The position numbers and the translations under genes were made by a program. A DNA stretch of 63,960 nucleotides from Methanosaeta sp. PtaB.Bin018 (GTDB taxonomy: Archaea; Halobacteriota; Methanosarcinia; Methanotrichales; Methanotrichaceae): NCBI GenBank assembly GCA_002067755.1, contig MVQH01000071.1, forward strand, positions 1 through 63,960, written 5' to 3'. Below the pieces are notes generated by a model that searched no databases, was not told where the DNA came from, and saw only the letters and a program-made list of their open reading frames with translations. Positions 1,168 through 5,207 of this stretch are shown here, piece after piece (within the stretch, counting starts at the first letter, position 1; every line of letters starts with the position of its first letter).

Positions 1168-2082
1168 ATGAGGATCCTGGTTGCTGAGTACGCCTCCGCC
1201 TTGGGCCTGGGCGGCACCTGCGAGCTGGAGGGCAGGGCCATGCTCGCCGCGCTGGTGAGGAGCTTCGTGAATTGCGGCCATGAGGTGGTCTACCCCACCT
1301 CCGGGCCGATGATCGGAGCAGGGCGCGGCTACATCGTGGACCGGCCGGAGGAGTTCGAGGAGATCCTGGAGGCGGTGAAGGTGGACGCCGGCCTGCTGAT
1401 CGCCCCGGACGGGCTGCAGCCGCGCCTCCTGAAGATCATGGAGAATAATACTGTCAACCTGGGCAGCAGCCCTGACACTGCCCGCATCTGCGCTGATAAG
1501 CTGCGATGCACATCTGTGCTCTCTGCTGCGGGCGTGCCCGTTGCTGAGATCGTGGCATTTCCAGAACCATGTGATAAGGGCTGCCACCGCTATGTCGTGA
1601 AGCCCAGAATGGGCTGCGGCTCTGAGGGGGTGCGCATCACCTCATTCGTTCAGGCAGGCTCCACACAGATCGTCACCCGCTACTATGAGGGCCTGCATCT
1701 CTCCGCCAGCTTCATCGTTGGCAAAGAGGGCTTTTTGCCCTTGACCGTCAATCGGCAGCTCATCGAGTTCGAAGGGGAGAGCATGAGCTACCAAGGGAGC
1801 CAGGTGCCCTACAACACGCCCCGTGCAACAGAGATCTGGGAGGCGGCAAAGAAGGCCGCCAGGGCCCTTGGCCTGCGAGGGTACGCAGGCATCGACTTTG
1901 TGCTGGGGGATCTGCCCCGGGCGGTGGATGTGAACGCCAGGCCTACGACGTCCATAATCGGGATCACGCGCGTGATGAGGGAGGAGATCGGAGAGCTGAT
2001 GCTGGCAGCGCGGTTTGGAGGGATGCCGAAGAAGGTGCGCGTCGATGGGGAGTATACATTCAAAAAGGCAGATCTTCTCTAA
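1168..2082 (+). CDS. mfnD: Tyramine--L-glutamate ligase, ATP-grasp (methanofuran biosynthesis)
   Basis: MfnD couples glutamate to tyramine using ATP, an early step in making the methanofuran C1 carrier. The 304-residue product opens MRILVAEYASALGLGGT. It has the ATP-grasp layout: VVKPRMGCGSEGVRI in the ATP-binding subdomain and DVNARPTTS as the metal-binding end of the fold, with GYAGIDFVL just before. An in-frame start at 1117 would overlap proS by 49 bases and add unconserved residues, so ATG 1168, two bases after the proS stop, is chosen. Other ATP-grasp ligases are possible, but the N-terminus and length fit MfnD best. Downstream at 2083-2100 a G-run followed by T5 may end transcription. 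Confidence 0.85.
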   Translation: MRILVAEYASALGLGGTCELEGRAMLAALVRSFVNCGHEVVYPTSGPMIGAGRGYIVDRPEEFEEILEAVKVDAGLLIAPDGLQPRLLKIMENNTVNLGSSPDTARICADKLRCTSVLSAAGVPVAEIVAFPEPCDKGCHRYVVKPRMGCGSEGVRITSFVQAGSTQIVTRYYEGLHLSASFIVGKEGFLPLTVNRQLIEFEGESMSYQGSQVPYNTPRATEIWEAAKKAARALGLRGYAGIDFVLGDLPRAVDVNARPTTSIIGITRVMREEIGELMLAARFGGMPKKVRVDGEYTFKKADLL

Positions 2083-2125: not shown

Positions 2126-2242
2126 TTAGTGGCAGCAATGGTGATCATGTTTATGATCAGCATCATGGATATGTTCGTGGGTATGCATTTTGCCGTTGTG
2201 CTCGTGGGAATGCTCGTGTTTATCATGGGTGTGACAACACAT
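2126..2242 (-). CDS. 38-residue His/Cys-rich metal-binding micro-protein (new)
   Basis: A 38-codon gene read from ATG 2242 to TAA 2126. It begins MCCHTHDKHEHSHEH and ends HKHDHHCCH, with 15 His and 4 Cys, most others being Asp, Glu or Lys. The composition is nearly symmetrical, with CCH at both ends. A perfect ribosome site (AGGAGGTGA, 2249-2257) sits 6 bases before the ATG, and a TATA box with purine-rich BRE lies about 45 bases upstream. This strongly suggests a real gene rather than chance. It has no signal peptide or membrane segment, so it is probably cytoplasmic. I infer binding or storage of Ni, Co or Zn, all heavily used by methanogens. I recognise no named family. An opposite-strand frame at 2129-2314 is its shadow. 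Confidence 0.72.
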   Translation of the reverse strand: MCCHTHDKHEHSHEHNGKMHTHEHIHDADHKHDHHCCH

Positions 2243-2284
2243 TCGAATTCACCTCCTGATCAGATCTTTTATTGTAAGTTTTAC

Positions 2285-2301
2285 TATATATTGTTTTTCC
2301 T
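2285..2301 (-). promoter_or_regulatory. TATA box and BRE of the His/Cys-rich micro-protein gene
   Basis: On the minus strand GAAAAACAATATATAG places an A-rich BRE directly before a TATA box (TATATA at 2285-2290). Transcription would start about 25 bases downstream, near 2262, leaving a short leader that contains AGGAGGTGA at 2249-2257. No operator-like inverted repeat was seen. Confidence 0.55.
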
Positions 2302-2567
2302 CTGCCAATTCTGAGTTTGAAGGTATGTATTTAGAAAAATAAGATTCAATTTGTAGCAAAATTTTGAACCAATGATATAATTCTTAAACGAACTGATTTT
2401 TCAGAGATTAAGATGTAACAATAATTCGTAGGATATGCCCTAACCGCCATACATCAGCCATGTGATATGAAAATGATTCCCATCCATCTTAGCCCCATTT
2501 TCATGCTCATGGGTGCCCAAACGGGCATGAAAGTTTAGCTCAGCAAAGTGGCAGCTGCAAAAAAAAG

Positions 2568-2972
2568 TTATGCTATCTGTTTTCCTGCAGCAGGTCCCCA
2601 CATGGCGTTATAGATCTCAGTGACCTTGACCATGACGCAGCTCTTCGCAGGCAGCTTGTTGTTGATGCCATGCACCCAGCTCCTCATCTGCTCGAAGGGT
2701 TCGCCCTCTTTGCAGACGGTGACGTTGCCCTTGATCTGGAAGGACTTCTTCGTCTCGCCATTGTAGCACAGGATGGAGATCTTTGGATTCTCAGCCAGGT
2801 TCTGAGCTGTCTTGTAAAAGAAGTTATCAGCGATCATTATGTTCTCGTCGTCAACGACCTTCAGCAACCCAACAAAGACGACGTTGGGAACTCCTGATTT
2901 GCTAGCAGTCGCTATCGGAACGGGCTTTTGCTTCTCCAAGGTCTCCCTCACATCAGGTGGCATCTTCACCAT
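2568..2972 (-). CDS. Pyridoxamine 5'-phosphate oxidase-like FMN-binding protein
   Basis: A 134-residue protein of the split-barrel flavin-binding superfamily. The pattern PVPIATASKSGVPNVVFVG, a middle IMIADNFFYKTAQNLAENPK and ISILCYN fits the small FMN-binding proteins annotated as PNPOx-like. The exact reaction cannot be read from sequence; members bind FMN, F420 or heme. The stop is followed within about 10 bases by an eight-T run on its own strand (2561-2568 region), a typical archaeal U-tract terminator. The gene is separated from cfbB by only 25 bases on the same strand and may be transcribed from the cfb operon. The 2302-2567 stretch before the next gene is AT-rich and holds no supported gene. 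Confidence 0.8.
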   Translation of the reverse strand: MVKMPPDVRETLEKQKPVPIATASKSGVPNVVFVGLLKVVDDENIMIADNFFYKTAQNLAENPKISILCYNGETKKSFQIKGNVTVCKEGEPFEQMRSWVHGINNKLPAKSCVMVKVTEIYNAMWGPAAGKQIA

Positions 2973-2997: not shown

Positions 2998-4386
2998 TCA
3001 AGCCTCCGATAAATACTTGCGCGTGGCTTTGATGAAGTTCGAGGGGAAGCCCCTGAAAGACGCACTGTGGATGTGCGAGTAGCTGGCCACCATGTTTCCC
3101 TCTGCCACGCCGTCCCAGCCTTCTTTTATTCCAGTTCCGCGCACAAGTCGGATGGCATAGTCCACCTTTCCATCCATCAAGATCTCCGAGTGGTGAAACT
3201 CGTGGCCCATGATCGGCTCGCCTGCAGGCCCGAGAGGGCATGCTCTTGCGAGGCTTCCATGCACGTAGCTGACCACCCGAACGCACCCGCGCCGGACTCT
3301 TCCTGGAATCAGGCCGACCATCTCCTGCCGCTCTCCATCCCAATCGATCTCCCTTGCAAGGTACATCAGTCCACCGCACTCGGCGTATATTGGCAAATCC
3401 CGTTCATGTGCCTTTTCCAATGACCGCCGCATCCTCTCGTTCTGGGAGAGTTCGCGAGCATAAAGCTCAGGATAACCTCCGCCGATGTATATCCCGTCAA
3501 CCTTCGGCAGGCAAGGGTCATGCACAGGGCTGAAAGGCACGACCTTTGCTCCGGAAAGCTCCATGAGCTCCAGGTTGTCGCGATAGTAAAAGTTGAATGC
3601 CTCGTCCATGGCCACGCCGATGCGGACGCCTCTTCCAAGATCGCTCTTGCGGTAGAGGTCTTCTGAGACCTCCATCAGAGGTTCCGCCTCCCGCGCAATC
3701 TCCAAGATACTATCCAGGTCCAGACCTTCATTTACGATCTCGCGGATCCTAACAAGCCGCTCCTCGAACCCTTCGTGCCGCGTCTTGCCCTCTAATACGG
3801 GAACCAGGCCCAGATGGCGCATCGCCAGATGCATATCATCGTCGCGCCGGATGACTCCGACGACTTTTATGCCTGCATAACGCTCGATCTCAGCTCTAGC
3901 TTTTTCAGCATGCCTCTCACTCCCTACCTTGTTTAAGATGACGCCCTTGAACTGAACATCCGGATCGAAGTCCATGTAGCCCTTCACAAGCGCCGCACAG
4001 CTTCGCGTAATGCTGCGGGCATCGACCACGAATATAACCGGAGTCTTGAGCATCTTCGCGATCTGGGCAGTGCTGCCAAGGTCGCCATCGTAGCCCTCGT
4101 AAAGGCCACGCACACCCTCGATCACTGAAATGTCGGCGCCCTCGGCCGCATGGGCGTAGACCTCCCGGATCGCTGCAGGCCGCATGAGGTATCCGTCCAG
4201 GTTGCGACAGCTCCTACCCGTAATCCAGGTGTGGTAGCTGGGATCTATGTAGTCCATGGCCACCTTAAAGGGCTGGACTTCAAGATCGCGGTTGCGCAGG
4301 GCAGAGAGCAGGCCTGCTACAATGGTTGTCTTGCCGCTGGAGCTCCTGTCTCCAGCAAGCAGAATGCGTGGGCAGTTGGCATTCAT
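2998..4386 (-). CDS. cfbB: Ni-sirohydrochlorin a,c-diamide synthase (coenzyme F430)
   Basis: CbiA-family amidotransferase of 462 residues. It has an N-terminal P-loop domain (ILLAGDRSSSGKTTI) and a C-terminal triad-type glutaminase domain with the nucleophile in YAECGGLMYL and a terminal HSEILM/SHIHSASF histidine region. CfbB amidates the a and c acetate side chains of Ni-sirohydrochlorin. CobB/CbiA of cobalamin synthesis is very similar, but the gene lies 26 bases downstream of cfbC, the F430 reductase component, which favours F430. ATG 4386 is preferred over TTG 4395 because GGGAG lies 9 bases before it. Confidence 0.85.
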   Translation of the reverse strand: MNANCPRILLAGDRSSSGKTTIVAGLLSALRNRDLEVQPFKVAMDYIDPSYHTWITGRSCRNLDGYLMRPAAIREVYAHAAEGADISVIEGVRGLYEGYDGDLGSTAQIAKMLKTPVIFVVDARSITRSCAALVKGYMDFDPDVQFKGVILNKVGSERHAEKARAEIERYAGIKVVGVIRRDDDMHLAMRHLGLVPVLEGKTRHEGFEERLVRIREIVNEGLDLDSILEIAREAEPLMEVSEDLYRKSDLGRGVRIGVAMDEAFNFYYRDNLELMELSGAKVVPFSPVHDPCLPKVDGIYIGGGYPELYARELSQNERMRRSLEKAHERDLPIYAECGGLMYLAREIDWDGERQEMVGLIPGRVRRGCVRVVSYVHGSLARACPLGPAGEPIMGHEFHHSEILMDGKVDYAIRLVRGTGIKEGWDGVAEGNMVASYSHIHSASFRGFPSNFIKATRKYLSEA

Positions 4387-4412
4387 ATCATTCAACTCCC
4401 AAGCCTTTTTTT

Positions 4413-5207
4413 TCAGGCTCTGGTCAGCTCCATGAGCCGCTCGTCAGTCAAAGGCTCTGGGATGGCGGGCTTTCCAACAGACATGATATCCCTGGCCAAG
4501 GCGCGGTAAACATCCGCGATCTGAGAGGCTGGCGCGCCCTCGATGACAGTTACCGCCAGTCGCTCGCATTTCTGCACAATTGGATCTTTGGGAATGAAGG
4601 CAACCATGCGGCTCTTCAGCTCCCTGGCAAAGCTCTCCACGATCTCGCGCTCGCCCGCTGCCTCACGCGAGTTGCATATAACTCCTGCGAGGGGCGTGTT
4701 CAGGCGGCGCAGGCCCTTGCAGATGTTGTTGCCAGCATACAGGGGCATGTACTCTCCGGATGTGATGATGTAGGCCTGGCTGACCAGCCCCTTCCTGATT
4801 GGTGCAGAGAAGCCGCCGCAGACTATGTCTCCAGGTACATCGTAGAGCACGAGATCGACCTCCTCCATGGCCCTGGAGACCTTGCGCAAGAAATCGATGG
4901 CCACAATTATTCCTCGGCCAGCGCAGCCAACGCCAGGCTCCGGCCCCCCCACCTCGATGCATTTCACACCCTTGTATCCTGAAAACACAACGTCTTTCTC
5001 TTTGATCTCCCCGCCTCGCTGGATGAGGTCCATCATGGTCGGGATCCGCCTACCCACCAGGGTAATGCTCGAGTCGCTCTTCGGATCGCAGCCAACAACC
5101 AGCACCCTGTGGCCTTCTTCGGCGCAAGCCGCGGCGATATTCGAAGCGGTGCACGACTTGCCGATACCACCTTTGCCGTATATCGCAACGTGTTTAATGG
5201 ATGACAT
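4413..5207 (-). CDS. cfbC: NifH-like reductase component of Ni-sirohydrochlorin a,c-diamide cyclase
   Basis: A 264-residue NifH/BchL-type ATPase. The P-loop YGKGGIGKS is at residues 10-18. The two [4Fe-4S] ligand cysteines of the homodimer are in [12 protein letters not shown] and [10 protein letters not shown]. CfbC passes electrons in an ATP-driven way to CfbD for reductive cyclisation of Ni-sirohydrochlorin a,c-diamide. Nitrogenase NifH shares these motifs, but the length, sequence and cfbB neighbour point to F430; cfbD and cfbE are not in this window. The start region overlaps the annotated frame of the divergent S-layer gene, so the promoter must lie in or near that gene's 5' end. Confidence 0.9.

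Follow-up and report, generated by a model that had tools for sequence, protein, structure and literature searches.

Is a 38-residue open reading frame (ORF), rich in histidine and cysteine, a real gene of an acetate-consuming methanogen, and if so, what might its product do? The frame lies on the minus strand of a 63,960-nt stretch of Methanosaeta DNA, here called the window. Among the methane producers that live on acetate, Methanothrix is a major one, and it requires much nickel and cobalt (F430, corrinoids, CODH/ACS). To our knowledge, it is poorly known how methanogens hold Ni and Co in the cytosol without mismetallation, and no store like Hpn of Helicobacter has been described in archaea. 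We find that the frame belongs to a genuine, conserved and apparently undescribed family of micro-protein genes of Methanotrichaceae (Methanothrix and its kin).

Sequence and expression signals

The product is MCCHTHDKHEHSHEHNGKMHTHEHIHDADHKHDHHCCH, 38 aa read from an ATG start to a TAA stop. As the original prediction had it, the minus-strand frame encodes 15 His and 4 Cys, with CCH at both ends, the N-terminal one following Met1. The peptide has a mass of 4.63 kDa and a predicted pI of 6.4. Its His share is 39% (15/38), against a mean of 2.6% (sd 3.8%) and a next highest value of 13% among the 256 ATG-started window ORFs of 30–60 aa. No hydrophobic stretch can be read from the sequence of the micro-protein, so nothing points to a signal peptide or a membrane segment.

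The proposed expression signals are present (Table 1): a Shine-Dalgarno (SD) site, AGGAGGTGA, six bases before the ATG, and a BRE-TATA element at the right distance, GGAAAAAC with TATATAG (2300-2284). A transcript starting near 2261 would carry the SD site in a leader of about 20 nt. Across the family, a GGAGGT- or GAGGTG-type site is found in every copy, its start 13–18 nt before the ATG. Most copies also have a TATA-like AT-rich element about 45–66 nt upstream; a few were missed by the simple pattern used, and one contig begins too near the ATG to judge. The spacing from the flanking genes points to monocistronic units, and the micro-protein gene is probably transcribed alone. Past the stop codon, hairpin-like 3' sequences (for example CTGGCAATTGATCCTTG...CAAGGATTCAATGCCA) were seen at L052, L053, L055-L058, L060, L061, L114, L115, L121 and L123; these are possibly terminators or a 3'UTR element. 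In the window, the MfnD-like gene is convergent with the micro-protein gene, with about 43 nt between the two stop codons.

Table 1. Features of the micro-protein locus and its neighbours in the window
Feature	Position	Strand	Basis or remark
His/Cys micro-protein CDS (stop codon included)	2126..2242	-	conserved family; purifying selection
Shine-Dalgarno AGGAGGTGA	2257-2249	-	6 nt spacer to ATG; comparable site in relatives
TATA box TATATAG	2290-2284	-	sequence motif; centre ~45 nt 5' of ATG
BRE-like GGAAAAAC	2300-2293	-	sequence motif
MfnD-like ATP-grasp protein, just after proS	1168-2079	+	98 bits, cut-off 400
PPOX-like flavoprotein, upstream neighbour	2568..2972	-	weak matches below cut-off
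cfbB, Ni-sirohydrochlorin a,c-diamide synthase	2998..4395	-	NF033195 648.9 bits, cut-off 560
cfbC, Ni-sirohydrochlorin a,c-diamide reductive cyclase reductase subunit	4413..5207	-	NF033200 408.7 bits, cut-off 402

Conservation and selection

Intact copies number 30, of 38–41 aa, in 27 Methanotrichaceae genomes (two each in G001, G007 and G019), a count that leaves out the degraded G027 copy and the pseudogene of G032. The decayed copies are L041 (G032:C46), which has no start codon and an internal stop, and L080/L120 (G027:C33), in which the N-terminal half is replaced. Among the 29 distinct sequences, 18 of the 38 positions never vary, most of them being His or Cys (M1 C2 H4 H9 H11 H13 H15 H20 H22 E23 H24 H26 H30 H32 H34 C36 C37 H38). 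CCH is conserved at residues 2–4 and 36–38, with C3 replaced by G in one sequence.

Substitutions follow the coding frame. For the 38-aa members, pS is 0.86 (near saturation) and pN 0.12, and other mostly open frames have ratios above 1. Against the close sister genome G014 the ratio in the coding frame is 0.04; the two genes differ by nine changes, two of which alter an amino acid (I/V, D/E). Nucleotide divergence of the CDS from this sister is 7.7%, only slightly below the 10–12% of the upstream DNA, as expected where synonymous sites are free to change. One antisense frame has a ratio of 0.16, but stops break it in almost every copy.

The opposite-strand shadow frame that the original prediction described exists, as ORF 2129-2314 (+), and it shows no selective constraint; we rejected it as a gene. 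We likewise rejected a 41-aa overlapping minus-strand ORF (2101-2226), whose frame is without selection. The same-strand overlapping frame is free of stops because of the His/Asp/Glu/Lys codon pattern.

The original prediction had been staked in part on conservation in close relatives, and there the frame, the SD site and the TATA-like element are all kept. Since the coding frame, the SD site and the residues are retained under purifying selection, this is a real protein-coding gene. A chance ORF without function might be just as short and, as here, overlapped by an opposite-strand ORF, but 30 intact copies keep their frame, SD site and residues under strong purifying selection, and we regard its probability as negligible. 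The frame could instead be a regulatory or leader peptide (a His-codon attenuator like hisL) or part of a structured RNA, being very short and His-rich, with hairpin-like sequence behind several copies and with hisB 5.7 kb away in the window. Against this, amino acids (Cys, Glu, Asp and Gly among them) are conserved while synonymous sites change freely; what lies downstream varies from locus to locus, with no his operon; and there is no Rfam match at E<=1. The selection pattern, the context and the Rfam result together led us to discard both the leader-peptide and the structured-RNA readings as highly improbable.

Distribution

A DNA search of 61 genomes, one of them that of the window, gave matches in 13. 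Most span roughly the SD site to the stop codon, and two of the weakest are short upstream matches only. With the profile, 28 of the 238 class genomes gave matches; all 28 belong to Methanotrichaceae, the window's own family, and the 188 genomes from the rest of the class gave none. In a phylum sample of 393 genomes, matches were likewise confined to Methanotrichaceae. Many near-complete genomes of the family have no match, among them all six of genus g5 (99% complete), G020, G021, G026, G031 and G034. The gene is therefore not essential for F430.

A wider scan covered 84,980 species, with one genome apiece, and gave matches in Methanotrichaceae, in one Methanospirillum metagenome-assembled genome (MAG) and in bacterial proteins. 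It assigned most copies to Methanothrix/Methanosaeta, including one M. harundinacea MAG. A viral scan gave two His-rich transporter tails only.

The Methanospirillum member is 42 aa long (L059:292-420, +) and lies on a contig labelled Methanospirillum hungatei MAG M59, with UPF0175, DUF3368, GrpE, HSP70 and DnaJ genes (a dnaK cluster) as neighbours. We considered whether this contig is a fragment of a known Methanothrix and rejected this, its flanks matching Methanotrichaceae DNA weakly and mainly at a common ABC ATPase. The copy may reflect a transfer outside Methanotrichaceae or misassignment of the contig.

The bacterial matches were rejected as micro-proteins; they are His-rich segments (tails or loops) in transporters that on inspection look mostly EamA/DMT-like. 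At L064-L111, L133 and L134, such bacterial transporters (again mostly EamA/DMT-like by inspection) carry long His-rich C-terminal tails with H[TD]HEH[VI]HDxHHxH.

Genomic context

The original prediction argued for a metal role partly from the proximity of cfbB and cfbC. The identities of both genes hold, each scoring above its cut-off; the argument from proximity is weak, the linkage being limited to the window species and the close sister G014. It is the weakest part of the earlier case, and linkage to a Co/Ni importer is stronger.

CbiM, of the Co/Ni ECF importer, lies within 6 kb at 7 of 30 loci versus 0.28 expected from counting CbiM in every genome (Poisson 2e-8), and FmdE, which was picked for testing after being seen in the loci, lies within 6 kb at at least 6 of 30 versus 0.41 expected (Poisson 5e-6); both tests treat loci as independent. 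Because one syntenic block accounts for five of the seven CbiM cases, there are about three independent CbiM contexts, which is still unlikely by chance (about 1e-3 by our estimate).

In G022, G024 and G010 the gene order is CbiM, CbiN-like (where called), CbiQ, CbiO, F4 and micro-protein, F4 being visible in G022 only as a likely antisense shadow. G007 has CbiO-F4-micro-protein at a contig end, G019 has CbiM-CbiN-micro-protein, and G008 has a partial CbiM upstream of the micro-protein gene. The degraded copy in G027 lies 0.3 kb after CbiO. In G012 the order is micro-protein-CbiMNQO, with a CbiM of a different subtype.

The F4 gene encodes about 124 aa ending in HHCCRFCGLEE (L055:5112-5480, +; homologs at L049, L056 and L060). 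It is placed between cbiO and the micro-protein gene or adjoins the latter without cbi genes, and Pfam gave no match for the L055 copy. In the CbiMNQO operon of Methanothrix, CbiO has a His-rich C-terminal tail, HEHMHFHGKAVHEHLHAHKGEHLHQHKT (L045:4092-4919, +; also L055, L060, L061 and L120), a possible cis metal acceptor on the cytosolic side. At the locus shared with the micro-protein the CbiO tail reads LIHEHMHFHGKAVHEHLHAHKGEHLHQHKT. We rejected an origin of the micro-protein from the CbiO tail, the similarity falling within that given by His spacing (p 0.26-0.87).

Other metal genes recur around the family. FmdE occurs with ZnuA in G015, G008 and G035, together with ABC-3 in G015, and lies near the micro-protein gene in G025, G006 and G033. 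Opp/Nik-like ABC ATPases are near it in G001 and G035, FecCD with Peripla_BP_2 (BtuF/FecCD-type) in G019, and Peripla_BP_2 in G017. In G027 a CDF efflux gene is 0.3 kb distant. At about ten loci no metal gene is visible, in several cases at a contig end.

These neighbours bear on a metallothionein-like role in detoxifying Zn or heavy metals in general, or a role in Zn storage. The ZnuA/ABC-3/FmdE loci and the CDF efflux gene would suit such a role, and His/Cys ligands fit Zn; yet the best-supported neighbour is the Co/Ni importer CbiMNQO, and the peptide is dominated by His, with only 4 Cys. We consider this reading unlikely. Because the systems nearby handle different metals (Co/Ni, Zn, metallophore), the identity of the metal is not fixed.

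A dedicated metallochaperone, along the lines of the original prediction, handing Ni or Co to a single target (the CfbA/CbiX chelatase, or CODH/ACS or hydrogenase maturation), would suit the presence of cfbB and cfbC near the gene in the window, and the small Ni proteins CooT and CooJ are indeed linked to client genes (PMC6006190). However, no client gene is conserved across the loci, the cfb genes are linked to it only in the window and G014, the gene is missing from many near-complete family genomes, and the peptide has no confident fold. A single-client chaperone is quite unlikely.

Comparison with known systems

The micro-protein has no Pfam or NCBIfam match at E<=0.01, and no PDB chain matches it at E<=1. 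Among the titles and abstracts by which we judged the literature, we found no account of the family and none of a histidine-rich nickel protein in Methanothrix.

The closest parallels are of kind, and we claim no homology: the micro-protein may work like Hpn and CooJ. Hpn and Hpn-2 are small proteins with 47% and 25% His that bind Ni and are proposed Ni stores, and no Hpn orthologs are reported outside Helicobacter (PMC3856676). The micro-protein is similarly very small and lineage-restricted, with a His share that lies within the 25–47% range. A title cited in PMC3856676 and PMC8704837 names a Cys-Cys motif as an essential anchoring site in Hpn and HspA, and the CCH near each end of the micro-protein may correspond to it. 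For Hpn-like peptides, Ni binding at an ATCUN-type N-terminus is described (PMC8704837), and an N-terminal His of this type would arise here on removal of Met1, which we infer. In contrast to Hpn, the micro-protein has His in alternation with other residues on both sides of a (D/N/E)-G turn, and it is archaeal, with its strongest linkage to a Co/Ni ECF importer.

CooJ binds four Ni and contains a domain rich in His, and CooT is a 7.1 kDa protein in which Cys2 is involved in Ni binding (PMC6006190). The micro-protein is His-rich like the former and small with a Cys2 like the latter; it differs from both in its length of 38 aa and in matching no Pfam or NCBIfam family, and those of its neighbours that were annotated, a part of the whole, include no CODH gene.

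HxHxH modules also occur in the His-rich tails or loops of CbiO, CbiX-L, RcnA and bacterial EamA-like proteins, and the CbiX-L tail has been proposed to serve metal ion storage and delivery (PMC7689651). These are appendages of large proteins, whereas the micro-protein is free-standing with Cys-Cys ends. The EamA-like tails share H[TD]HEH[VI]HDxxHxH with it beyond His spacing, a resemblance whose p-value is no fair homology test because a large scan had already selected these matches as its best; this is probably a recurring metal-binding motif. Metallothioneins are likewise small, rich in metal ligands and proposed to act in buffering, but the micro-protein is Cys-poor (4) and His-dominated, and has no family match.

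Proposed function

We favour a cytosolic, non-secreted buffer or store for Ni(II) and/or Co(II), possibly also Zn(II), that would work like Helicobacter Hpn, and put the probability of this reading at roughly 0.6. The interpretation in the original prediction survives in part. Purifying selection on His and Cys and the recurrent metal-transporter neighbours argue for a role with divalent transition metals; the absence of the gene from many near-complete Methanotrichaceae genomes argues against dedicated and indispensable service in F430 or CODH maturation.

How such a buffer might be built can be sketched. AF2 places strands at residues 9–15 and 18–24, a low-confidence hairpin (pLDDT 60, pTM 0.25). 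These segments may form a beta-hairpin around the conserved (D/N/E)-G turn, and the pattern HxHxHxH-(D/N/E)G-xxHxHxHxH would then line one face with seven or eight alternating His, giving a surface that holds metal weakly and exchangeably. The N-terminal M-C-C-H and the C-terminal C-C-H would be tighter anchors, and after Met1 removal NH2-Cys-Cys-His could be an ATCUN-like site with thiols. The peptide would take metal released inside the cell by CbiMNQO-type and other importers and pass it on or withhold it.

A more specific form of the buffer reading is that the micro-protein acts in trans as a metal sink or relay, a cytosolic acceptor of Co/Ni delivered by CbiMNQO, with its His-faced beta-hairpin and twin Cys-Cys-His ends. 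The CbiMNQO ATPase at micro-protein loci carries a His-rich C-terminal tail of its own, which could be read as an acceptor too. We offer this version tentatively and think it doubtful.

For Methanothrix and its relatives, the finding adds a micro-protein family short enough for the usual gene-length filters to drop. Its product is a defined 38-residue peptide, open to synthesis and direct titration.
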